Source: a virus. Taken from it: DNA of 28,921 bases. The stretch lies in IMG/VR virus record IMGVR_UViG_3300043788_000153, positions 1 to 28,921 of that record; one strand, 5' to 3'. This document shows, in pieces, positions 6,311 to 25,173 of the stretch (positions are counted from its first letter, which is position 1; each line of letters begins with the position of its first letter). The notes beneath the pieces are model-generated. The model worked only from the letters and a program-made list of their open reading frames with translations. It was not told the DNA's origin and made no database searches. The translations under genes and the position numbers were made by a program.

Positions 6311-7263
6311 AATTATCTGAAGCTTATAAAATTATCAACCTATCTTCTGATGCTACCCCTGAAGAGGTTAAGAAACAATATAAGAAATTGGCCAAAGAGT
6401 TCCATCCTGACGTTAATAAGGCTCCCGATGCCGAAGCTACCTTCAAGAAAATCAGTGAAGCTTATCAAACTATTCAGGCGGGAAAGGACGAGCCACCCGT
6501 CGCTGATTGGGGTGGTTTTAATAATCAGCATATTTATGACATTTTTAATAGGAATGGTTCCGGACGAGCTACCAAACAACATTTATCTAGCAATATAGAT
6601 TTATATACTACCATTTCTTTCAGAGATGCGGTACAGGGATGTAAAATTGAAATAACTTATTCTAGACAAATTAAATGTCCGCATTGTCAAGGTAGTGGTA
6701 ATAAGCCAACTAATAATGGCTGTAAGACTTGTGGAGGTCAAGGTCAAGTTGTTTCTCGCAATGGTAGCCATGTATTTATACGCACGTGTAGTGAATGTTT
6801 AGGTCGTAGTCAAAGCAATCCTTGCACCAACTGTAGCAGTACAGGCTTAATAGAAACAGAAGCTTCGGTACATGTATCGGTGCCTGCGGCAATGGTGGAT
6901 GGTAATGTTTTACGTTTGCAAGGTATGGGTAACTTTGCTGGCACCTTTATGGGCTTGCAAGATCAATACACTGATGTGCATTTGCGTATTAAGGTTACTC
7001 CAGAACCTGGATTACGCTTAGAAGGTAAGGATGTAGTTTCTGATTTGCACCTTACTTTATTGGATGCTTTACGTGGTTGTGATACTACCATTAGTACGAT
7101 AGATGGATCTAAGGTGATTGAAGTTAATGCCGGTATTAAAAATAAAGAAGAAATAGTTCTATCAGTAGGGGGCCATAATATTAAGCATCGTGTGATTGTT
7201 CACGTGGAGTATCCTGCCAATATAGACAATTTGATTGATGTCTTATCCAAAGAGGCAAATTAA
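6307..7263 (+). CDS. DnaJ-like co-chaperone (J domain plus zinc finger)
   Basis: A J-protein that would stimulate the ATPase of a host DnaK/Hsp70. Residues 1-60 form the J domain with the essential HPD at 33-35. There is little or no Gly/Phe linker; only a short stretch (about 68-88) separates it from the next domain. The zinc-finger region has four CxxC pairs: C124/C127, C139/C142, C161/C164 and C173/C176. A substrate-binding beta domain with VPAAMVDGNVLRLQGMGN (about 192-209) and a final VHVEYP region follow. At 318 residues it is shorter than the usual 370-380 of bacterial DnaJ. No DnaK gene is in the window. The phage may use it to direct host chaperones to replication proteins or capsid folding. 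Confidence 0.9.
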   Translation: MKLSEAYKIINLSSDATPEEVKKQYKKLAKEFHPDVNKAPDAEATFKKISEAYQTIQAGKDEPPVADWGGFNNQHIYDIFNRNGSGRATKQHLSSNIDLYTTISFRDAVQGCKIEITYSRQIKCPHCQGSGNKPTNNGCKTCGGQGQVVSRNGSHVFIRTCSECLGRSQSNPCTNCSSTGLIETEASVHVSVPAAMVDGNVLRLQGMGNFAGTFMGLQDQYTDVHLRIKVTPEPGLRLEGKDVVSDLHLTLLDALRGCDTTISTIDGSKVIEVNAGIKNKEEIVLSVGGHNIKHRVIVHVEYPANIDNLIDVLSKEAN

Positions 7264-9081: not shown

Positions 9082-9834
9082 ATGTTAAGAATCATTGAAC
9101 TTTTTAATAATTTACCAGTTTGTGTTAGAGTGGATCCAGAGGCTTACTTCCAACCAGGACAGGTCGCCGCCCTCAAAATGAGAAAAGGCGAGACTGTGGC
9201 AGGAATATGTGACGGGCTACACCCCTGTGGCATCATTGATGACATCAGATCCAATGTGTTTAGGGTGGTTCCCAAACCTCCCCATCAAATCCATATCATC
9301 CCCATTCATCATCGCACCTTCGATGAAGAGAAGAAAGAAATAGTTTCCTCCCAGGATTACAAGGTAGAATTAAGTCATGCCGGTATTATTGCTGCCTCTT
9401 TCGTTAGCAGTGTACCTGGACACTTGAAGCCGGCTAATGGCGAGTTCATTCTGCCGAAGGGGACTGTTTGCAACTATTGTATCACCCCCACGGTGGAGGG
9501 GCGCGATATGAACGATGCCGTTCGTTTGACTTGTCGCTACGCCTATAATGTGCCTATGCTTAAAGCGGATGATTCTACTATCGGTTCGGGACGAGTTACT
9601 CTTTGGACTAAAAATATGATTGCTGACACCGACATGTATGATACCACGCAAGAATATCGCAAGTATGCCAATCTTTATGTAGAAAATGGCTTATTGACCA
9701 CCAAGCGCCTAAATTACACCTGTAAGTGCATAGGCATAGTTTTAGATGTTCCTAACGCTGATAGTTCTATGTTGCGATTTCTTTTAGATTTAGAGGGTAA
9801 TGTGGATGTTGGGCAGCAGTCTAGGGACTTTTAA
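9082..9834 (+). CDS. Hypothetical protein, 250 aa, beta-rich
   Basis: I do not recognise the family. The ATG at 9082 has a strong AAGGAG ribosome site. The protein seems mostly beta: the N-terminal stretch FQPGQVAALKMRKGETVAG then GIIDDIRSNVF is the sort of segment found in phage surface or capsid-decorating proteins, where a value/label segment follows F-x-P-G-Q. A Pro/His-rich segment (PKPPHQIHIIPIHH, about 64-77) comes next. Cys residues occur in CNYC and CKCIG. The end (LRFLLDLEGNVDVGQQSRDF) is polar. Codons here are less AT-rich than in the preceding genes. It sits alone between two regulatory gaps. A structural role is possible but low in confidence. Confidence 0.75.
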   Translation: MLRIIELFNNLPVCVRVDPEAYFQPGQVAALKMRKGETVAGICDGLHPCGIIDDIRSNVFRVVPKPPHQIHIIPIHHRTFDEEKKEIVSSQDYKVELSHAGIIAASFVSSVPGHLKPANGEFILPKGTVCNYCITPTVEGRDMNDAVRLTCRYAYNVPMLKADDSTIGSGRVTLWTKNMIADTDMYDTTQEYRKYANLYVENGLLTTKRLNYTCKCIGIVLDVPNADSSMLRFLLDLEGNVDVGQQSRDF

Positions 9835-12145: not shown

Positions 12146-12955
12146 ATGAAAGTAGCCAGACTGGCCCAACTCCTATCGCTGAAGTACGGGTTTCAGTCCG
12201 AGGCTGCTATAGTTCCCGTCTCTGAAGATCGTCTCATTGCCGAGGTTAAAAGGGATATTCTGGATTCTTATCGCAATTATTTTTCTCGTTCTGCCAAGAA
12301 CTCCATGCTTCAGTATGTAGCGGATACGGGAGATCCTTTGACCATAGAGCTAACCTACAAAATGGACAAGTTGGTTCGAGACTTAAATACTTTATCTCCT
12401 GTTAAGATAATTAAGAGTCTTAATGATATCATTACGGTAGCTCATCAAATTAAGACGGATCCCGAGAAAAAAGCCCGTCAAACCATTCGTGATAGTTTGC
12501 GAGGCCATCCTGATCGTACCATTAAGCATTATTTGACCACGTTTGAAGGATTTTTGGCCCGAGCTTTTTCTACTTTGCAAAAAGCAGCCACCAAACTACA
12601 GGTAGTTGTTCCAGACGTAGCGGTCCATAGTGGGGAGGTGTCTCGTCAACGAGGAGATTTAACCAAGCAAGAATTGGTTAATTTCGTATTATTTACTCCC
12701 ATCTTCCAGAGTTATGGCCTTAATTCTTTGGATGTGATTGGAAAGTTTTTGGAAGACCCAGAGCTTAAATCTAAATTGACGACCCTAATTAATGCGGTTA
12801 AGAGGGGACACACTCCTGTAGATGGATCTGAGGTCAGTGCCATAGCTCAAGAAATCAAAAAGAAATTAGATCAGCAAGAGCAAACCAATATGCCTGTTTT
12901 GGAGCAAGCCGAACTTCCACCCATTAATCCGGAACCGAAAAAGTTAGAGGAATAA
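12146..12955 (+). CDS. Hypothetical virion-block protein, 269 aa, helical
   Basis: I do not recognise this protein. It begins three bases after the stop of the duplicated protein; the ribosome site GGATAA inside the previous gene's end is weak, so coupling is likely. The whole protein is predicted helical by eye (VKRDILDSYRNYFSRSAKNSM, then many Leu/Ile/Lys heptad-like stretches), with a basic patch around 108-125 (KKARQTIRDSLRGHPDRTIKH). It has a Pro/Glu-rich disordered tail (about 248-269, ELPPINPEPKKLEE). The shape suits an internal scaffold or tail-associated coiled protein. No catalytic motif is visible. Confidence 0.8.
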   Translation: MKVARLAQLLSLKYGFQSEAAIVPVSEDRLIAEVKRDILDSYRNYFSRSAKNSMLQYVADTGDPLTIELTYKMDKLVRDLNTLSPVKIIKSLNDIITVAHQIKTDPEKKARQTIRDSLRGHPDRTIKHYLTTFEGFLARAFSTLQKAATKLQVVVPDVAVHSGEVSRQRGDLTKQELVNFVLFTPIFQSYGLNSLDVIGKFLEDPELKSKLTTLINAVKRGHTPVDGSEVSAIAQEIKKKLDQQEQTNMPVLEQAELPPINPEPKKLEE

Positions 12956-12985
12956 TTTGGTATCCTTAATTATACGGGAGAAACT

Positions 12986-13702
12986 ATGAGAATTGCTGAA
13001 ATGTTAAATGCCATGGCTGCCTGGTTGGAGAGCCCGACTAACGAAGCCTTATTGCTTGCCGAAGAAAATGAAGATTGTATGAAGGTTGTTGCCGAATCAT
13101 GTGTATTGGCTGCCGCTCTATTGAAGAAAGCCGCTGATGAAGTGGATGGTCTAGAGCCGGCTGAACCTTCTAAAATCACCCCAGAATCTGTTCAAGAATT
13201 AGCTGATATTGCCAGCGCTTTTGACGCTTCTGGCGACCCCCAACTTAAAAAACAAGCTTCTGTTATTGATGAGCTACTATTAACTATTGCTGCTCCCCCT
13301 GGCGCTATGGCAGACAAGAAAGCTGCCGATGACTACCGTATTGAGGAGCTTCGCAAGAAGTATGAAGGCCCACGTAAAGAATTACATGCTATCGATAAGA
13401 CCGAAGAATCTATTAAGGCTATCGATAAAAGTAATTTGACTAAGCAGTACAAGATTTTAGAAGCTCCTTTGAGCACGAGAACATGTCCTGACCATCCTGG
13501 CGCACAAATGGGAAGAGTTGGCGAACATGTATTTCAATGCGAGTTAGATAAAAAAACATATAACTATGAAACGGGTTATGAATTGCAAAACGGAAGCAAA
13601 GTTCCTGGTGGAGATGTCTCTCTACAAACCAGCAATTCTTTCAGTGCTCCCTTCCAAACTATATTTGATTCCAGAGAAGGTAGACTCGGAACTAATAGAT
13701 AA
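12986..13702 (+). CDS. Virion-block protein with C-terminal zinc-like motif, 238 aa
   Basis: Unknown family. It follows a 30-base gap with GGGAG as ribosome site. The first 100 residues are helical and acidic. A hydrophobic/Pro segment (VIDELLLTIAAPPGAM, 93-108) leads to a charged helix (DDYRIEELRKKYEGPRKEL). Residues 160-200 form a ribbon-like motif: TCPDHPG (C167, H170), RVGEHVFQC (C185), then ELDKKTYNYETGYEL. It ends with KVPGGDVSLQTSNS and a polar tail. I recall this C-D-H-P-G with following V-F-Q-C layout from other large-phage structural gene clusters, but cannot name a function. It is probably a virion or assembly component. Confidence 0.8.
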   Translation: MRIAEMLNAMAAWLESPTNEALLLAEENEDCMKVVAESCVLAAALLKKAADEVDGLEPAEPSKITPESVQELADIASAFDASGDPQLKKQASVIDELLLTIAAPPGAMADKKAADDYRIEELRKKYEGPRKELHAIDKTEESIKAIDKSNLTKQYKILEAPLSTRTCPDHPGAQMGRVGEHVFQCELDKKTYNYETGYELQNGSKVPGGDVSLQTSNSFSAPFQTIFDSREGRLGTNR

Positions 13703-13719: not shown

Positions 13720-14481
13720 ATGAATAAGAATGCACTCAAGAAAATTTTAGATCATCCCGATAAAGACGAGATTATAGCCAAATTAGTTTTAGATGTTCCC
13801 CCCAAAGATATTTATGAGTGGTTGTCTAGCAAGTATACCAATGTTAGTGAGGCCAAGTTCGTTATTGCGGAAAAGTCTGTTAAGACTTTTAAGGACAACT
13901 ATTTAGATGTCTATTCTTTAATTCAAGAAGATATTACGAAAACTAAACGTGCAGTGGTTGCCGGCACTACGGAAGAGCAGTTAGAGTTATCCGTTAGGAA
14001 CAACTCTGCTTATCGTAGTAAAATGTTGGAATTAGCTGGTAAGGAAATTGATGTGCGCCAGATGATAGCTCATTTGTGCGTGGCCATCGAAACTCGTGTA
14101 GGCCAAGTTTTTGATGAAATTCAAGAGGATCCTCGTAATATCAATACTAAGTTAGATCGTATTTTAATTGAGTATGCCGAAGTGCTGGGTGGGATTCTAG
14201 AAAAATACTACAAATTCACTGAGGGCCCTACTGAGGCTCAATTTGTTCAGAATAACATGACCATCCAATTTATGGATCAGCATATTCTGGTATTTCAGGA
14301 AGCAATTCGAGAAACCTTGTCTGAACTAGATTTAGAGAGTTCCATGTTATTTATGGAGCGTCTTTATGAAAAATTGGCCAAATTGAAAGCTCCAGAAAAG
14401 GAAGTCATGCCTAATACGGAGGTAAGATTAGCCGAAGCCAAGATTCTCAATGAAACTATTAACAAAAAGTTAAACGAATAA
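13720..14481 (+). CDS. Helical protein, possible small-terminase-like DNA-binding subunit
   Basis: A fully helical, 253-residue protein. The first 60 residues (DEIIAKLVLDVPPKDIYEWLSSKYTN, then SEAKFVIAEKSVKTFKDNYLD) could form a helix-turn-helix, and the centre (about 60-210) has long amphipathic helices with coiled-coil-like spacing. These features and its position about 7 kb upstream of the large terminase resemble small terminase subunits, which bind the packaging start and oligomerise by coiled coils. The resemblance is general, so this is a hypothesis; a scaffold protein would look similar. Its GGAG ribosome site lies inside a 17-base gap after the previous gene. Confidence 0.75.
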   Translation: MNKNALKKILDHPDKDEIIAKLVLDVPPKDIYEWLSSKYTNVSEAKFVIAEKSVKTFKDNYLDVYSLIQEDITKTKRAVVAGTTEEQLELSVRNNSAYRSKMLELAGKEIDVRQMIAHLCVAIETRVGQVFDEIQEDPRNINTKLDRILIEYAEVLGGILEKYYKFTEGPTEAQFVQNNMTIQFMDQHILVFQEAIRETLSELDLESSMLFMERLYEKLAKLKAPEKEVMPNTEVRLAEAKILNETINKKLNE

Positions 14482-14482
14482 T

Positions 14483-16324
14483 ATGGCCACTATCATCTCA
14501 ACAACACTCCCAGATAAATCAGCTACAGACTTGGAAAATAAAATCCAGGATTTGATTCGGTTTTTGGGAGAACATGGTATCAATTATGATAAGTTTGCTA
14601 CCGCTTTGGATGATAAAAGGGCCTATCCCAACTATGATCAGTATATGTATGTTCCTGGTCAGCATAATCTTAATAAATGGTTAGAGACCGTTAGAAAGAT
14701 TTTTGCCGCCGAAAAAGGTGGGACAACCCGTGTTAATGCAGTTCGTCAAGCTACTAATGGTTGGAACCTAATGGAGACTTTTGATTTCTTGAATTGGTTA
14801 CGATTTTATCAAGAGGGTACTCACTTGAAATATAAAACAGCACAACTTTGGTATGAAAACGGTCAGCCAGGGTATTTTTTACAAATTAAACCTGATGCTC
14901 CTAAACCAACCGAACCAACCGTAGATCACAATGCCGTTGATAATGTTCGTGAGGATTCTGAACGTTCTGATGAACGTAAGCGCATTATTGAAAAGCAACG
15001 ACAAAAAATTATTGGTCGTTTAGATTCTGCAGAAAAATTATTACGTTCACCGGAAGGGCAGTTGTTTGCTGGCCCTGAATTAGAAAATTTGATGGAGGCC
15101 ATTTATAGTCTCAAAAAGAAGGTGCAGCTAGTTAATAAACTAAGCACTTCTACCCGTTTATATGAAGATATGATTGTACGAGAAGGCAATGTACTACGTC
15201 GCAATGGTTTCGTTAAAGCGGCAGAAGTTTTGTATTCCATAGCTCAAGCTAATAACCCACCACCACTGGGTACAGGTGTTAAAGGACCCATTAACGCAAT
15301 TCCTGCTGTAGTTTCTCCAGACGATCCTTCAGGTGCTGGACATCCCGGTGCTCCAGGTGGATTGCCCTCTGTAGGGCCAGGTATGCCACAATCGCCAGGT
15401 AGCCCTCCTACCGGAGCTAGTGAAACGCAACCAGTAGATCCCAAATCTCCTGCTAAAATGCCTGATGGATCTATTGCTCAAGGCCCGCCTTCTCCTATGC
15501 CAGAGGATGCTCCCAAAGGTATCACAGAGTTTTTAGAAGGCACTGAAACGGCTGGTAAAACGGTGCCAGAAGATCAGCAAGGTGTGGAAGATGAGTTGAA
15601 TGTGGAAGAAGATTCTTTAGAAGTACAAGACGAACAATTATTGGTGACGGAAGCTCAAATGGCGCCACCAGTTGAAGATGTTCCGATGACCACTCATCCT
15701 CGCAAACCTAAATCATTAGAACCACAAGCTCCGAAAGATGTGACAAATGACACTCCTCCAGCTAATGAGGCTGGTGTGACGGATGCTCCCTCTGGCGCTA
15801 AAGATTTTGATCGTATCATTGATTCAGCTTTAGCCAATGTAACGGTAGCGGATACAGTAGCTAAATTAGAAGACATCTCTAAGATTTTCAAGACTCGTGA
15901 GATTCCTCGTCAATTGGCTTTAGTTGATATGATGTTGGATAGTCTGGGTTTAGCTTCTTATTTCCCCACCTTATCTGAAGCTATTAACAAGTCTTTGGAA
16001 TCCAATAACTATGTAGCCACTCGTATAGAAGATATTATTTCTAGATTACGTGGAGCCATTAGTGGTAGAACTGTAGATCTTAAAGGGGAAACTACTCCAG
16101 ATCGTGCCGGTGGTGTAGCTCAAAACTTACAAAACCAAAACGACAAAGAACAGGCTAGTAAGAAAATGAGAAAAGAGCAAGAGAATGCCGAACTACAAGG
16201 TGGTGCCGGGAAAGAATCACCTCAAGTAGAAATCGGAGAAGATTTAGGTGCTCTTCCTGCCGCCCCAAGAACGACACCAGCTCAGGCTCCCGTCAATCCA
16301 CCACTACCTCGTCCCGCAGTTTGA
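14483..16324 (+). CDS. Large virion-block protein with Pro/Gly-rich centre, 613 aa
   Basis: I do not recognise this protein. Residues 1-135 look like a folded, aromatic-rich domain (MYVPGQHNLNKWLETVRKIF; YEN.QPGYFLQI). Residues 150-250 are helical and strongly charged (SERSDERKRIIEKQRQKIIGR). Residues about 255-350 are rich in Pro and Gly (NNPPPLGTG; GHPGAPGGLPSVGPG) and look disordered; an acidic linker follows to about 400. Residues about 425-520 form a helical domain (LEDISKIFKTREIPRQLALV). The tail is again polar and Pro-rich. A long protein with folded ends and a flexible middle fits a scaffold, internal protein or tail-tube component. The start follows the previous stop by one base with no clear ribosome site, so coupling is likely. 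Confidence 0.82.
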   Translation: MATIISTTLPDKSATDLENKIQDLIRFLGEHGINYDKFATALDDKRAYPNYDQYMYVPGQHNLNKWLETVRKIFAAEKGGTTRVNAVRQATNGWNLMETFDFLNWLRFYQEGTHLKYKTAQLWYENGQPGYFLQIKPDAPKPTEPTVDHNAVDNVREDSERSDERKRIIEKQRQKIIGRLDSAEKLLRSPEGQLFAGPELENLMEAIYSLKKKVQLVNKLSTSTRLYEDMIVREGNVLRRNGFVKAAEVLYSIAQANNPPPLGTGVKGPINAIPAVVSPDDPSGAGHPGAPGGLPSVGPGMPQSPGSPPTGASETQPVDPKSPAKMPDGSIAQGPPSPMPEDAPKGITEFLEGTETAGKTVPEDQQGVEDELNVEEDSLEVQDEQLLVTEAQMAPPVEDVPMTTHPRKPKSLEPQAPKDVTNDTPPANEAGVTDAPSGAKDFDRIIDSALANVTVADTVAKLEDISKIFKTREIPRQLALVDMMLDSLGLASYFPTLSEAINKSLESNNYVATRIEDIISRLRGAISGRTVDLKGETTPDRAGGVAQNLQNQNDKEQASKKMRKEQENAELQGGAGKESPQVEIGEDLGALPAAPRTTPAQAPVNPPLPRPAV

Positions 16325-16337
16325 TGGAAGCAAATGA

Positions 16338-17096
16338 ATGAAACTACGAGAATTGCTTCAACAAATGCAAGAAGTTCAACAAAAGATTGGGGCCTCGCCC
16401 GCATTCATATGCGGAGGAACGCCACGTGATAAGTTTATGGGACGTTTGGATAACGTCGCCGACATCGATATTACTACCGGTGATAAAACAGTAGACTACT
16501 TGTCGCAAGAGCTTGCTATTGAATTACGCAAGAAGTATAACTTGACCAGAAAAACGATGGAGGACGGACATTCAACTATTTTCATTGGTAATCTCAAAAT
16601 GGATTTTTCCTCCAACTTTATTGTACCCAACATTGATACTTACTTAGCTAAATTGGGTATGAACAAACCTAACAATATGCAACGAGAAATGTTCTCTCGA
16701 GACTTTACTTGTAATTCTTTATTGCTAACTATCGACCTCAAACAAATATTAGATCCCACCAAGCGTGGCTTTATTGACATCAAGAATAGGGTTATCAAAA
16801 CCTGTTTAGCTCCGGAGGTGACGCTCACCTCTAACCGAAACAGGGTTATCAGGGCTGTGTATCTAGCTTGCAAACTAGGTTTTGAGATAGATCCAGCGAT
16901 CATAGAGTTTGTGCGTGCTAATCCGCAAACATCCAAGCTGTCTACTGAAAAGGCTATGACGGAAAAAGTAAATCAGGCTTTTACCAAAGACCCAAACAAA
17001 GCAGCCCAGCTCATTACTCAAATGGGTTTGTGGCAGTACATTCCTATTACTGAAAAAGTATATCCATATTACCTAAAGGTTAAAAATGGAAAATAA
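16338..17096 (+). CDS. Poly(A)-polymerase/CCA-adding-like nucleotidyltransferase
   Basis: It shows the class II nucleotidyltransferase layout used by tRNA CCA-adding enzymes and bacterial poly(A) polymerases. Residues 26-31 form the GG..RD pattern (GGTPRD), followed by the catalytic Asp pair D42 and D44 (VADIDITTGD) and a third candidate Asp at D89 (LKMDFSS). The later RDFTCNSL (121-128) matches the usual R-R-D-F-T-I-N-A-L, and NRNRVIRAVYLACKLGF (166-182) matches the D-P-x-R-x-L-R-A helix. The protein has 252 residues, about 60% of a full enzyme, so most of the C-terminal body/tail is missing. The start at 16338 has GGAAG upstream. The end overlaps the next gene by 11 bases. Whether it still acts on tRNA, RNA or another substrate is unknown. 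Confidence 0.85.
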   Translation: MKLRELLQQMQEVQQKIGASPAFICGGTPRDKFMGRLDNVADIDITTGDKTVDYLSQELAIELRKKYNLTRKTMEDGHSTIFIGNLKMDFSSNFIVPNIDTYLAKLGMNKPNNMQREMFSRDFTCNSLLLTIDLKQILDPTKRGFIDIKNRVIKTCLAPEVTLTSNRNRVIRAVYLACKLGFEIDPAIIEFVRANPQTSKLSTEKAMTEKVNQAFTKDPNKAAQLITQMGLWQYIPITEKVYPYYLKVKNGK

Positions 17097-18381
17097 AAAA
17101 GCCTATTATCAAGGAGGCGGTGGTGTCAATGAACCCACTCCTGGTAAAAAGAAATACAAGTCGGACACCGCTATCACGGTACAGCCTCGTTTCGTAGAAC
17201 CATTTTATCGTAACTACGATTTATATACGATTCCTGGTATGGAAAATGTGGGTCCTGGCACTGGTTATCATGGTTTGCAAAATTATAAATCCATTCAAGA
17301 GTTTCTAGAGGCACGCAGAGCAAGACTTAAGCCTCGCTATATAGCGGATGATTCTTGGATAATCGACAATGGGGATCACGTCAAAAAGAATCCTGAGCGT
17401 AAAGCTCGTATGGCTCTTTTTCAGAAAATTATCAAGACAGCTGAAGGTGAAATCTGGAGAGGAAAAGACCCCCGTAAAGCAGATAAACCAATTGGGTGCA
17501 AAGATTCCGATATTAAATATACTGAAAATAGAGACGCTTACTATTGTAAGAAATGTGGACATCTCGGATTCAACGGACCATATGAGCCCAAGCCAACAGT
17601 GGAACAATTGCATTCTGGTAAAGATTACACTCAAGAGAGCATCAAAGAGGCAGGCCCGAACTATGATTTAGGTAAAGGTTTATATCAAGAAATGAGTGAT
17701 GGCAAAGTTGATAGTGTAGAAGAGTTTAGAGACGAAGGCAATCATGGTCCAAGCGCTTTCTTTGCCGATGACAATGCCGATCATATGTTGCCGCCCAAAG
17801 AGCATGGAACTAGCATTTACGATTGGAAGAATAGCCCTTATCAAGGAAAGCCTAAAGCTCCTAAAAAGCATGATTCCAACAATATAGACTTTCCTATCGA
17901 TGATCAAATCCATACTGGCCCCATCACTGGAGACTCTGGTCATTATGAGAAACCCATCAAATTAGGTCCGGCTGGGGATCCTGAATTGGATGGTATCATG
18001 CCAGGAACCGAAAATGAAGGAGAGTTTGAGTCTTATCCCTATTCTGCGCAATTGGGTGGTTTCTTGGATAAATACCTACCGGATGCCGATCAAGATGGTA
18101 AACCAGCCTCTTCTTTGGATTTTGGTCATGATTTAACTAATGATGATGCGCCAGTGGGTCGCCCTTATGGTAAAGACAGCGATGCCCCAATGGATGAAGA
18201 TCATTTGGACAAATTAGAGGAAAAATATGTTCTTCGTCCCGCCGAGACCGAGATTTATGGCTTACCCGATGGGGTAGACCCAGAAGCTAAGGATGCTGAT
18301 CAAACCATCCAAACAGAAAATCCTGACTATGGCATTACTGACTCAGGGCGTCAAATGTACGAGGATAAGTGGAATATATAA
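17086..18381 (+). CDS. Virion-block protein with zinc-ribbon-like insert, 431 aa
   Basis: Unknown family. Its start overlaps the nucleotidyltransferase by 11 bases, so translation is coupled. Residues 1-100 are Gly/Pro/Tyr-rich (YYQGGGGVNEPTPG; FVEPFYRNYDLYTIPG) and may bind partners. A helical stretch (IQEFLEARRARLKPRY) follows. Residues about 120-225 look like an insert containing a possible zinc ribbon: GCKDSD (C138) and CKKCG (C154, C157). The remainder (about 225-431) is strongly acidic, Pro-rich and low in hydrophobic residues (DDNADHMLPPKEHG; DGVDPEAKDADQ), thus probably disordered. It is likely a structural or assembly protein, inferred from context only. Confidence 0.82.
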   Translation: MENKKAYYQGGGGVNEPTPGKKKYKSDTAITVQPRFVEPFYRNYDLYTIPGMENVGPGTGYHGLQNYKSIQEFLEARRARLKPRYIADDSWIIDNGDHVKKNPERKARMALFQKIIKTAEGEIWRGKDPRKADKPIGCKDSDIKYTENRDAYYCKKCGHLGFNGPYEPKPTVEQLHSGKDYTQESIKEAGPNYDLGKGLYQEMSDGKVDSVEEFRDEGNHGPSAFFADDNADHMLPPKEHGTSIYDWKNSPYQGKPKAPKKHDSNNIDFPIDDQIHTGPITGDSGHYEKPIKLGPAGDPELDGIMPGTENEGEFESYPYSAQLGGFLDKYLPDADQDGKPASSLDFGHDLTNDDAPVGRPYGKDSDAPMDEDHLDKLEEKYVLRPAETEIYGLPDGVDPEAKDADQTIQTENPDYGITDSGRQMYEDKWNI

Positions 18382-19405: not shown

Positions 19406-20293
19406 ATGAAAAAAATAAGTCAAGAAGATTTCATACAAAGATCTAATATTGCTAATAATAATTTTTATGATTATTCAGCGTCTATTTTCACTGGAACTAA
19501 AAATAAGGTGAGTATTGTATGTCCAATTCATGGAATATTTACACAAATAGCACAAAATCATATGCGTGGAGATAGGTGCCCCTCCTGCACTAGAAACAAA
19601 AAATTAGATACCCCAATATTTGTGGAAAGAGCGCAAGGTATTCATGGCAATGTTTATGATTATTCGTTGGTGGAATATAAAAATAATTCCACTAAGGTTA
19701 AATTAATTTGTAATATTCATCATTCAATTTTCGAGCAAACGCCCAATAAGCACCTTGAAGGGCACGGATGCCCTCAATGTGGTCCAGCAAAAATGGCTGA
19801 AGCTCAAAAGTTATCGTGGCAAGATTTTGCAGATAGGGCTTCGCTTATCCACAATAATAAATATGATTATTCTTTAATTGATTATCAAACTATTAAACAA
19901 TATGTAATCATAATGTGTCCAACTCATGGGGAGTTTCATCAAACTCCAGATAATCATTTAGCTGGACACGGATGTTCTAAATGCACTTCAAGTATTTCTA
20001 AAATGGAAACTAAATGGTTAGATTCTCTCAATATTAAAGAACGAAACAAAACCATTCACATTGCAGGTAAGATATTTAAGGTAGATGGTTTCGATTTAGC
20101 CTCTAATACTATTTATGAGTTTTATGGGGACTATTGGCACGGCAATCCAGATATCTATAATTCATCTGATTATAATCAAATGAATAAAAAGACATTTGGA
20201 GACCTATATAATCATACTATGAGGCGTCAAGAAACATTACAGAAGGCTGGCTATAATATTGTATATATTTGGGAAAATAATTTTCAAGGGTAA
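19406..20293 (+). CDS. Homing endonuclease with three zinc repeats and Vsr-like nuclease domain
   Basis: A probable free-standing homing endonuclease. Three tandem repeats of about 60 residues lie at about 8-61, 72-125 and 140-193. Each follows F..R(A/S)..I..N.YDYS and then zinc ligands C39/H42 with C58/C61, C102/H105 with C122/C125, and C171/H174 with C190/C193 (DUF723-like DNA-binding pattern). The C-terminal domain (about 200-292) has METKWLDSL (E201), FKVDGFDLA (D227, D230), YEFYGDYWHGNP (E238, D242, H245) and ETLQKAGYNIVYIWENNF, as in Vsr/EDxHD-type nucleases such as phage homing enzymes. The gene is much more AT-rich than its neighbours and starts one base after the previous stop, consistent with insertion between genes without disrupting either. 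No intron is seen. Confidence 0.85.
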   Translation: MKKISQEDFIQRSNIANNNFYDYSASIFTGTKNKVSIVCPIHGIFTQIAQNHMRGDRCPSCTRNKKLDTPIFVERAQGIHGNVYDYSLVEYKNNSTKVKLICNIHHSIFEQTPNKHLEGHGCPQCGPAKMAEAQKLSWQDFADRASLIHNNKYDYSLIDYQTIKQYVIIMCPTHGEFHQTPDNHLAGHGCSKCTSSISKMETKWLDSLNIKERNKTIHIAGKIFKVDGFDLASNTIYEFYGDYWHGNPDIYNSSDYNQMNKKTFGDLYNHTMRRQETLQKAGYNIVYIWENNFQG

Positions 20294-21291: not shown

Positions 21292-23178
21292 ATGTCAGAT
21301 AAAGATGACTATAAGCGAATATTTGATAAACTAAAGAAACAGCTTTCTATGATCGATCCTGTGGTCTTCGCTGAGACCCATCTAAGCTTAGAAGGCCAAC
21401 CTTTTACCCTACACGATAATGGCTACAAACCTTTTGCCGATATCTATCGATATGTAGGTATCAAGGCTTTAGAGCCTACTGCCAAACCCATTATTATCGT
21501 TAAGGGTCGTCAGGTTGGTGCCACTACTATGGCTTCCGCACTTGAAATGTATTTCATGGGCAGTGGTCTTTTTGGTGTTGGTGATAAACCACCTATTCGT
21601 GTTATTCATACTTTTCCACAATTAGAATTAGCGGCAGCTTATTCTAAAACTAAATTAAACCAGATGATCGTGACCTCCAACGCGCCCGAAGGAATAGTCC
21701 CAGTCAAAGCGGGTGCTAAAGTCAAATCTTATATGCAAATGTTACTAGACCAATCTTCTGGCACTAGTGAATCCTTAACTTTTAAACAATTTTTGGGTGG
21801 CAACCATTTATGGGTAGAATCCATTGGCGTAGATGCTGACCGTATCATGGGTCGTACCGCCGATGTTATTTTCTTCGATGAAGTACAAAAGACCACTACT
21901 TTGGCTCTAGGAAACGCTCTTAAGATTTTAACTACTGCCAAATATGGTGAACCTTCCAAAGGTGTAAGAGTATATTTCGGAACCCCTCGTCGTAAAGGTT
22001 CTGATTTTCAAAAGATGTGGCAAAAATCCTCTCAGCAGTATTATTATTTAGGATGTGAGGGTTGTGAAAAATATTTTCCACTTTATACTCCAGGTTCTGA
22101 TGACTGGGAGAAAGTTTGGATCCATACCAAGGTGGTTAAGTGTCCATTATGCGGTCATGAGCAAGATAAACTACAAGCCCAAGAGCGCGGTAAATGGGTA
22201 GCCCTTAAAGATCCAGATGATCCAGATTGTGAAGCAGTTGGATTTCATATCAATCAACTATACATGCCCATGTTTACTCGTGAGGCTATTGAAAAAGAAA
22301 AACCAGGCAAGCACCCATTAAATACTGAACGTGTTTTTATGAATGAAGTATTGGGAGAGTTTTTTCAAGGAGATTCTAGCCCAATTACTGCTGAAGAAAT
22401 TGCTCAATTTTGTGCTGATCGTGAGAGGAAGTTTAGTTCACGCATTGTTACTAGTCCAGGATTAGTGCAACAAATAGCAGTATTAGGTATCGATTACGGT
22501 GCCAAATCAGATTTAGAACAAATGGCCAATGTAGATAAAATTACTAGTCGTGGACAATCTTATAGCACAGCGGTAGTTTTACTTTCTAAGGGTCCTGGGT
22601 TATTATCTATTGAATATGCTATGAAGTTTAAGCGTAATGAACCTGAACATAAAAAGGGTATTATTGACCAGTTGATGAGACAATATAATATTCAATTAGC
22701 TATAGGTGATATTGGTTTTTCTAATGACTTTTCTCAAACTCTACATCAAATATATGGTGATAAATATTTGGTATCTCGCGCTCATCCTTCTGTTAATGAT
22801 CACGTTAAGTTTAGACATGATGCTTTTCCTAAAGAACTAATTTTTGAGAAAGATTATTATATTGGCGAATTGTATGAACAAATGAAAAAAGGTATGATAA
22901 GATTTCCTTATGGTGATTATGAGAGAATAGGCTGGTTAATAGAACATTGTGCTAGTATGGAAATCAAACCATCTATTTCTAGAACGGGTGGGGATCCCAG
23001 CATCCATTATGTTAAAGGTGGAACGCCTAATGACGGTTTTATGGCATTACTTAATGCTTACTTGGCTTATAAGTTTTTAATAACTCGTGGCTTCACTAAT
23101 ATGAATCCGGCAACACAAAATGAAAAAAACATTAATAAACCATTGGTTATGTCAGGATATGTTGCTAGAAAGTTCTAA
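21292..23178 (+). CDS. Large terminase subunit (ATPase and nuclease)
   Basis: This motor pumps DNA into the capsid and cuts the concatemer. Walker A is GRQVGATT (72-79) and Walker B with the catalytic Glu is VIFFDEVQK (192-200). A zinc-binding loop has C255/C258 (CEGC) and C284/C287 (CPLC), as in some GpA-like and large-phage terminases. The nuclease is an RNase H fold: D401 (LGIDYG), D473 (IGDIGFSND) and D581 (NDGFMALLNAYLA). At 628 residues it is of usual length. ATG 21292 is the only sensible start, yet no ribosome site precedes it. It is followed by the portal gene after a 75-base gap with a promoter candidate. The family assignment is sure; the packaging strategy cannot be deduced. Confidence 0.95.
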   Translation: MSDKDDYKRIFDKLKKQLSMIDPVVFAETHLSLEGQPFTLHDNGYKPFADIYRYVGIKALEPTAKPIIIVKGRQVGATTMASALEMYFMGSGLFGVGDKPPIRVIHTFPQLELAAAYSKTKLNQMIVTSNAPEGIVPVKAGAKVKSYMQMLLDQSSGTSESLTFKQFLGGNHLWVESIGVDADRIMGRTADVIFFDEVQKTTTLALGNALKILTTAKYGEPSKGVRVYFGTPRRKGSDFQKMWQKSSQQYYYLGCEGCEKYFPLYTPGSDDWEKVWIHTKVVKCPLCGHEQDKLQAQERGKWVALKDPDDPDCEAVGFHINQLYMPMFTREAIEKEKPGKHPLNTERVFMNEVLGEFFQGDSSPITAEEIAQFCADRERKFSSRIVTSPGLVQQIAVLGIDYGAKSDLEQMANVDKITSRGQSYSTAVVLLSKGPGLLSIEYAMKFKRNEPEHKKGIIDQLMRQYNIQLAIGDIGFSNDFSQTLHQIYGDKYLVSRAHPSVNDHVKFRHDAFPKELIFEKDYYIGELYEQMKKGMIRFPYGDYERIGWLIEHCASMEIKPSISRTGGDPSIHYVKGGTPNDGFMALLNAYLAYKFLITRGFTNMNPATQNEKNINKPLVMSGYVARKF

Positions 23179-23253: not shown

Positions 23254-25173
23254 ATGTCTGAAATAAAATCATCGGGTTTAGGTAATGAACCGTCCTTCTC
23301 ATCTAGATATATGAAAAATAGGTCTAACACTCCACAAGTGAGTGCTATTATGGCTCAAGGTATCTCCGAAGAGAGAAGGGTTATACTTTCTAATGAGGTA
23401 GATCAGGGCCTATTTGCTGATGGATCTAGTCCTAGTTACAATAATCTATCCAACGCTTGGGACAGAGAAAACGGAGAAACTATAGCTGGTCGTGTAGTTG
23501 CCTCTTCCCATACTTCTTCTTCTATCATGTCTAAGTACGCTCAATCTATTAGTAGCGCAGGCGGTATGTTTCGTGGTATTCACGGCGACTCTGTTAAACA
23601 AACTCCAGAAGTTTATTCTCCTTTATGGTTGAATAGCAACCTTAATCTACCACGTGACCGTGCCACTATTAATGCTTGGTGTCGTAGCTTTTTTGCTCTG
23701 AACCCATTCGTTCATAATGCCATTTGTTTGCATAGTACTTATCCAATTAGTAAGCTTAACATCAAATGCCCTAACAAAGATATTGAGAAATTCTTCAATG
23801 ACATGATTGAAGAAATTGACTTGATGAATATTTGCGTGCAAATAGCTCAAGAATTTTGGCTATTAGGTGAGGCTTTTATTTATGCTGAATTGGATGAAAG
23901 TAAAGGTAAGTGGAGTCGTTTGCTCATACAAAATCCCGACTTTATGATTGTCAAACGCACGGTAGTAGCTAATGAACCTATTATTATGTTACGTCCTGAT
24001 GCCAACCTACAAAAGATTATTTTCTCCAATCGTCCTAGTGATGTGGAACAACGTAAACAATTGAACCAACATATTATTGATTCGGTTAGACGTGGAGAAA
24101 ATATTCCGCTAGACAATTTTCATGTCTCCCATTTGGCTCGTATAATTAGCCCTTATGAAATAAGAGGTACTGGATTACCAGTTTGCATTTTTCGTCAATT
24201 AATGTTATTCGATAAGCTACGTGAGTCAAAATATGCTCAGGCTGATAATATGATCAATCCGCTCACTATTGTCAAGATTGGTTCAGCTGATTACAAGCCT
24301 ACCTTTGCTGACTTGGAAGCTTGGAGAAATGTATTTGAGGAAGCTCAGTACGATAAGGATTTTAAGATTTTCACTCATGAAGGTGTAGATGTAACTAGAG
24401 TGGGTTATGGTCAAGGTATTTATGACATCTCTGGCGACATCACCCAACTAGTTAAGGAGATTTATGTGGGTTTGCAAGTTCCACCAGTCTTGATGGATGG
24501 TGGCGCTGATACTACTTATGCTAATGGCGGTGTAGCTTTAGATGTGCTTCGTCAACGCTATATGCAGTTTCGTAATATGATGTCTCAGTGGTTGAAACGC
24601 AAAGTTTTTGCCCCCATATCTAAGATCCAGGGATTTTATGATTACTCTGGTGGGCAGAAACAACTAATTGTGCCAGAAATTGATTGGAATCATATGTCTT
24701 TGTTTGATGCGGGCGACTACATCAACAGTTTGGTAACTTTGACTCAGGGCACCGATGAAGCTAAGAGAGTTTCTTTGCATACTTTGTATCGTTCCATTGG
24801 TTTGGAATTTGACGATGAAGCTAGGAAGATGCGCAAAGAGGCCATTCAAATTGCTATTGCTAAAAAAGAGAAGGCTGCTTTGGAAGCTATGGACCTAAAT
24901 GCTTTGAGATCCTTGGATGACGAGGATGAAATCCCAGAACCAGAAACTCAACCAGGTCAGCCACAAGATCAAACTGTGCCAGGTGAAACTCCAGGTGGCG
25001 GTTCTCCTGGTGGGGCTATGCCAGACTTAGGTATGCCTCCACCTCCGGGCGGCGCCCCACCTCCTCCTCCAGGTCCAGGCCCAGCCGGACCTCCAGGTGG
25101 TGACACAGGCGCTGCTCCTCCAGGTGGTGCAGGTGGCGGTGGTTCTCCAAGTGGTCCACCTCCTGGCCCATAA
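23254..25173 (+). CDS. Portal protein
   Basis: Twelve copies would form the ring through which DNA enters and leaves the head and that seeds capsid assembly. Identification rests on its place directly after the large terminase, its size (639 residues) and the portal-like core: PLWLNSNLNLPRDRATINAW, FWLLGEAFIYAELDESKGKW, then TGLPVCIFRQLMLFDKLRES and IYDISGDITQLVKEIYVGLQ followed by VPPVLMDGGADTTYANGG, the pattern of stem and wing regions in phage portals. The N-terminus (about 1-110) is polar. From about residue 570 to the end the sequence is almost entirely Pro and Gly (PPPPGGAPPPPPGPGPAG), a long flexible tail unusual for portals. T4 gp20-like is the closest type, but exact family is uncertain. 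Confidence 0.85.
   Translation: MSEIKSSGLGNEPSFSSRYMKNRSNTPQVSAIMAQGISEERRVILSNEVDQGLFADGSSPSYNNLSNAWDRENGETIAGRVVASSHTSSSIMSKYAQSISSAGGMFRGIHGDSVKQTPEVYSPLWLNSNLNLPRDRATINAWCRSFFALNPFVHNAICLHSTYPISKLNIKCPNKDIEKFFNDMIEEIDLMNICVQIAQEFWLLGEAFIYAELDESKGKWSRLLIQNPDFMIVKRTVVANEPIIMLRPDANLQKIIFSNRPSDVEQRKQLNQHIIDSVRRGENIPLDNFHVSHLARIISPYEIRGTGLPVCIFRQLMLFDKLRESKYAQADNMINPLTIVKIGSADYKPTFADLEAWRNVFEEAQYDKDFKIFTHEGVDVTRVGYGQGIYDISGDITQLVKEIYVGLQVPPVLMDGGADTTYANGGVALDVLRQRYMQFRNMMSQWLKRKVFAPISKIQGFYDYSGGQKQLIVPEIDWNHMSLFDAGDYINSLVTLTQGTDEAKRVSLHTLYRSIGLEFDDEARKMRKEAIQIAIAKKEKAALEAMDLNALRSLDDEDEIPEPETQPGQPQDQTVPGETPGGGSPGGAMPDLGMPPPPGGAPPPPPGPGPAGPPGGDTGAAPPGGAGGGGSPSGPPPGP

Follow-up and report, generated by a model that had tools for sequence, protein, structure and literature searches.

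The 28.9-kb window analysed here, which is the entire virus record, encodes a short nucleotidyltransferase of the class II type (252 aa; 16338..17096, +) that keeps the catalytic residues of CCA-adding enzymes and has lost the aspartate with which they read the incoming base. We consider it moderately probable that this protein belongs to a new phage subfamily of active terminal nucleotidyltransferases with a specificity other than CCA, targeted by a partner protein and made from the head/packaging operon.

Fold, family and motifs of the short nucleotidyltransferase

The protein is recognised by the Pfam PolyA_pol profile (PF01743; E=3.3e-11, 44 bits, curated cut-off 23), by the PHROG tRNA nucleotidyltransferase profile (E=2.5e-17) and, among PDB profiles, by a tRNA nucleotidyltransferase (E=1.3e-13), which places the family assignment far above chance. 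Structure prediction, which the preliminary description had named as a check against class II CCA enzymes, agrees: the AlphaFold model (16 family members as input) has a pLDDT of 91.3 and a pTM of 0.86, and the first 46 Foldseek matches in the PDB are all class II tRNA-processing enzymes, CCA/A-adding enzymes or bacterial poly(A) polymerase, the best being 4wby (E=1.2e-10, TMq 0.68; TM about 0.6-0.7 over the query). Thus, by its profile, its carboxylates and its head-neck fold, the protein is a member of the class II nucleotidyltransferase superfamily with the PolyA_pol head fold. It comprises the head and neck and lacks the body and tail that bind tRNA in CCA-adding enzymes (PMC3925840); its best cellular profile match ends at position 230 of 396, which bears out the truncation described earlier. 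PADLOC models gave no match to the protein, and a defence-system reading was dropped.

Class II motifs had already been noted in this reading frame, and fold and profiles agree with them. Three of the motifs listed (GGTPRD, DID and SRDFTCNSL) stand as described, whereas the fourth, given as R-x-L-R-A, reads RVIRA (R169-V-I-R172-A). The residue counts below refer to 67 distinct relatives, and the residues of motifs B and D were placed through profile alignments that included CCA enzymes of solved structure as well as further enzymes from phages and cells. Motif A starts with GGTPRD (residues 26-31; 16413..16430, +), in which G26, G27, R30 and D31 are invariant (67/67), as are both aspartates of the catalytic D-I-D (residues 42-44; 16461..16469, +). 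D89 (16602..16604, +), an invariant acidic residue on the strand that follows the DxD hairpin, is the proposed third carboxylate. Altogether, D42, D44, D89, R121, D122, N126, R169 and R172 are unchanged in all 67 relatives. A motif E-like stretch, STEKAMTEKV (residues 202-211; 16941..16970, +), carries Lys instead of Arg and was assigned by eye.

Two motifs depart from the canonical pattern. Motif B, RRDxTxN in canonical enzymes, is here SRDFTCN (residues 120-126; 16695..16715, +), at the start of SRDFTCNSL (residues 120-128), and the first Arg is Ser (S120) in 67/67. In motif D, S165-N166-R167-N168-R169 (16830..16844, +) replaces E-D-x-x-R, and the family as a whole mostly has SN[R/K]NR. The Arg is kept in 67/67; the position of the Asp, however, is occupied by N in 61/67, S in 2, K in 2, H in 1 and D in 1 (an acid in 1/67), and the preceding residue, canonically Glu, is S, T, A, N, V or Y. 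L017 and L145 retain the Asp, and the same position is acidic in the enzymes of phage G, Lak, a 735-kb phage, Aeromonas, Vibrio and one Chitinophagales genome. The Asp of EDxxR bonds the amino group of C or A while the Arg bonds the ring (PMC3925840), and in a selection performed on the human CCA enzyme neither residue was ever replaced (PMC11784652); motif B has been described as taking part in ribose binding (PMC7730189).

Scans of viral contigs returned 16 relatives and then 139 (80 kept), with further members at 36% identity. About 70 distinct relatives share 36-97% identity and lie on phage contigs of up to 480 kb. These form a single clade separate from the canonical enzymes (100/100 support, stem of 2.96 changes per site), and dN/dS within the family is about 0.05 (about 0.04-0.10) for pairs with measurable dS. 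Cellular relatives with the same motif D were also considered and rejected, as the sole genome match is a family member on a phage-like contig, with identical synteny, in a Chitinophagales assembly. Searching 50,697 phage records for the nucleotidyltransferase yielded no close relative, and a search of the literature on phage virion nucleotidyltransferases, with most subscription journals outside its reach, yielded nothing describing the short family.

The head/packaging block and the downstream partner

The gene had been placed inside a virion gene block. Given the conserved gene order and the head maturation protease and major head protein found farther along the same strand in a 480-kb relative, this is fair in a broad sense that takes in terminase, portal, protease and head protein, but the adjoining genes have no assigned function. 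Directly upstream lies a gene for a 613-aa protein with Pro-rich linkers (14483..16324, +), present in 64/64 loci long enough to show it, preceded by one for an all-helical 253-aa protein (13720..14481, +; 63/63 such loci). A small terminase subunit was considered for the latter; its model has a pLDDT of 63 and no PDB match at E<=0.001, and the assignment was left as a guess. Downstream follow the terminase large subunit (21292..23178, +) and the portal protein (23254..25173, +). Of the upstream genes 12986, 13720 and 14483, the downstream genes 18448 and 20301, terminase and portal, none is absent more than once from the 45-71 loci that extend far enough to show it; gene 12146 was found in 39/56 loci and gene 17086 in 67/74, the others being missing or too diverged to detect. 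The gene is no stray tRNA gene, as members of the short family share the same position, upstream of genes for terminase, portal, head protease and a phage-G-like capsid protein.

In the 480-kb relative, the major head protein (L109:17724-18737) shares 54% identity with gp27 of Bacillus phage G; together with the portal profile match, this ties the uncultured huge phages studied here to phage G. A homologous block in phage G was considered and rejected: in the phage G region examined for the nucleotidyltransferase block the portal alone matched, and the phage G nucleotidyltransferase match lies far from the head genes and keeps SEDPLR. Several further features of the region were observed. Between genes 18448 and 20301, a homing-endonuclease-like DUF723/treble-clef gene (19406-20293) has the look of a mobile element inserted into the head block; it is absent from that place in relatives such as L004, while L015 has a homologue at another site (6353-7255) and L002 a second copy (12556-13080). 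Another endonuclease-like gene with a Zn-binding N-terminus (464-1180) has a homologue placed differently in L014 (2862-3416), between a sigma-factor gene and the homologue of gene 9949. The protein encoded at 9082-9834 shares FQPGQVA and GIIDDI with the product of a gene (L109:9723-10412) that precedes the one for the major head protein in the 480-kb relative; this likeness, seen by eye, suggests a duplicated head-region protein. The terminase gene is present as two overlapping ORFs in L145 (11656-13483) and enlarged to 967 aa in L101 (10767-13670), possibly by an intron, an intein or a sequencing error. In the 480-kb relative, two adjacent tandem genes that look from their sequence like patatin-like phospholipases (L110:14989-16727) stand after large tail or fibre-like genes.

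The end of the nucleotidyltransferase gene overlaps the next start by 11 bases in the +1 frame (17086..17096, +), as first described, and relatives share such a +1-frame overlap, mostly of 8-14 bases. A programmed frameshift at this point was set aside: since most split members have a separate ATG at the opening of the downstream +1 frame, translational coupling is the simpler explanation. The partner gene (17086..18381, +) encodes 431 aa that are predicted, from charge and hydropathy, to be mostly disordered. Where the partner begins, or where it joins the nucleotidyltransferase in fusions, AYYQGGGGVNEPTP is conserved (usually AYFQGGGGVNEPTP; 17101..17142, +), followed by a conserved segment, RFxEPFYRNYDLY...GPGxGxxxxxxYKSxxEFLxxRR (17188..17325, +), a version of which is attached to the nucleotidyltransferase itself in L099. 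This segment occurs in about one copy per genome, and the idea that it serves as a widespread tag was rejected on that ground. In 14/67 distinct relatives the stop codon is lost and the partner homologue and the nucleotidyltransferase form one ORF; on the tree, the fused or split state needs at least three changes, either separate gains or one gain and two losses. Together, the fusions and the gene order indicate that the two proteins work together, and we infer that the partner supplies targeting in place of the lost tRNA-binding domains.

The same arrangement would also suit an effector packaged into the virion, carried by its partner and delivered at infection, that tails or caps the 3' ends of host tRNA or mRNA, the purpose being translation shut-down, or that protects phage RNA. 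The fixed place of the gene ahead of those for terminase, portal, head protease and capsid, the presence of a head maturation protease in the block and an enzyme fused to or adjoining a disordered protein speak for such an effector; however, the adjoining genes have no assigned function, no packaging signal was identified, and late operons also encode proteins that do not enter the virion. Virion packaging of the nucleotidyltransferase is possible, and the effector as a whole has some likelihood, if a minor one. It is unlikely that the domain is catalytically dead and has been reused as a head scaffold or connector, an explanation that would fit its fixed position in the block, its degenerate base-reading residue and its fusion to a probable structural partner. 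Against it stand the catalytic carboxylates and the RD..N of motif B, which are invariant across relatives of 36-97% identity and which a scaffold would not need.

Canonical CCA-adding enzymes and tRNA genes in the same phages

A second and far stronger PolyA_pol match, in frames of 415-466 aa, was found in 12/24 larger records (6/10 and 6/14), usually about 30 kb away from the short gene and on the opposite strand; records that show no second CCA gene may be fragments, and thus no conclusion is drawn from its absence there. Those canonical enzymes whose motifs were read have RRDLTIN and EDGLR intact. Moreover, tRNA genes, up to 58 of them, were detected in 9/10 records tested. None was found in the 28.9-kb window, as had been stated at the outset, but that true observation misleads, because in most of these phages the tRNA genes lie elsewhere. 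Outside the short family, a CCA-type nucleotidyltransferase with a canonical DDPLR motif is embedded in a 1,233-aa multi-domain protein of the 735-kb phage LR756501 (L018:5637-9338).

The preliminary description took the gene product for a CCA-adding/poly(A)-polymerase-like enzyme; a plain enzyme of either kind is not supported. With the CCA equivalog model PRK13299, the 252-aa protein reaches 62 bits against a cut-off of 290, which its canonical paralogue L024 passes with 311, and with the pcnB profile of bacterial poly(A) polymerase it reaches 35 bits against 305.65. Of the features by which CCA-adding enzymes are told, the short family has lost EDxxR in motif D (the base-reading Asp is gone in 66/67 members) and RRD in motif B, and the 252-aa protein stays below the equivalog cut-off and lacks body and tail; a separate canonical enzyme is encoded in half of the larger records. 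The suggestion that the enzyme repairs tRNA 3' ends by CCA addition is weakened by the same lost Asp, equivalog score and separate enzyme. Hence, it is quite unlikely that we are dealing with an ordinary enzyme of CCA addition or repair, pared down to serve the phage's own tRNAs, even though it has the fold and family profile of one, these phages carry many tRNA genes, and a second enzyme was not seen in the other 12 of the 24 records: the motif D acid, the body and the tail are all missing.

Proposed activity and comparison with known enzymes

Given that the base-reading residue has been exchanged while the catalytic residues are intact, the short enzyme probably tails some RNA in a way unlike any known relative. 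As we picture such an active, non-CCA nucleotidyltransferase, the late head/packaging operon would yield the enzyme together with, and often fused to, the disordered basic protein of the next gene; an NTP would be bound between catalytic head and nucleotide-binding neck and its nucleotide passed to an RNA 3' end, independently of a nucleic acid template, by the two-metal mechanism. The disordered partner would take over the targeting that body and tail provide in tRNA enzymes; it speaks against the proposal that RNA binding by a head-neck protein may be weak. With another residue, mostly Asn, in place of the base-reading Asp, CCA or poly(A) addition is not expected, and the enzyme would instead add another base or be relaxed in its choice. 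Which base this would be is not safely predictable, since the exchange of Asp for Asn reverses only part of the hydrogen-bonding pattern. C or A could still donate a hydrogen bond to the Asn, so that the exchange is no proof of a new specificity, and the variability of the position (N, S, K, H or D) could reflect relaxed or lost base reading. The fullest version of the proposal, a lineage in huge phages that lacks the EDxxR template, adds a non-C/A or mixed tail to RNA, is targeted by its partner and is carried in the virion, appears rather doubtful. Very unlikely is the idea that the enzyme nucleotidylates protein (its partner, a capsid protein or the terminase), which the lost RNA-binding body and tail, the linked protein partner and the lost C/A-reading Asp would suit, but for which no acceptor was identified, and we know of no class II enzyme that modifies protein.

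The Asp and Arg of EDxxR have been treated as a part of the protein template of class II CCA enzymes that cannot be compromised. Here, a large natural family under strong purifying selection keeps the chemistry and replaces the template Asp, with canonical paralogues in the same genomes; it lends itself readily to testing how the specificity of protein-templated polymerases changes, and points to a modification of RNA 3' ends that is linked to the head/packaging genes of huge phages.

With class II CCA-adding enzymes (PRK13299/TIGR02692; 1miv, 3h39, 7oqx) the short family shares the head and neck, GGxxRD, DxD, RDxTxN and the Arg of motif D; it differs in the loss of the motif D Asp and Glu, the change of the first Arg of motif B to Ser, the lack of body and tail, the position in the head/packaging operon and the fusion to an unrelated disordered protein. 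The best structural matches are the A-adding and CC-adding enzymes of split systems (Aquifex 4wby/1vfg and 3wfo-type). In CC-adding enzymes, as in the short family, the first residue of motif D is variable, but there the variation is confined to this first template position (PMC11784652), whereas the short family replaces the second, the Asp. Bacterial poly(A) polymerase PcnB (3aqk) belongs to the same superfamily, and the 252-aa protein matches its NCBIfam model at E=5e-9, but at 35 bits against a cut-off of 306, and lacks both the ED of motif D and the C-terminal RNA-binding part. The canonical phage CCA enzymes (L019-L024, L130-L134; frames of 415-425 aa), encoded in the same genomes, are, unlike the short family, of full length, have EDGLR and RRDLTIN and form a separate clade (100/100). 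Short phage proteins annotated as poly A polymerase head domain (167-220 aa; Pectobacterium PP2, Vibrio 1.204.O) have only a remote fold similarity to the short family (E about 1e-3). The fold and the existence of short phage head-domain proteins, as annotations, are known already; what is new is the conserved loss of the template Asp, the fixed position in the head operon, the fusion to a partner and the presence of a canonical enzyme alongside.
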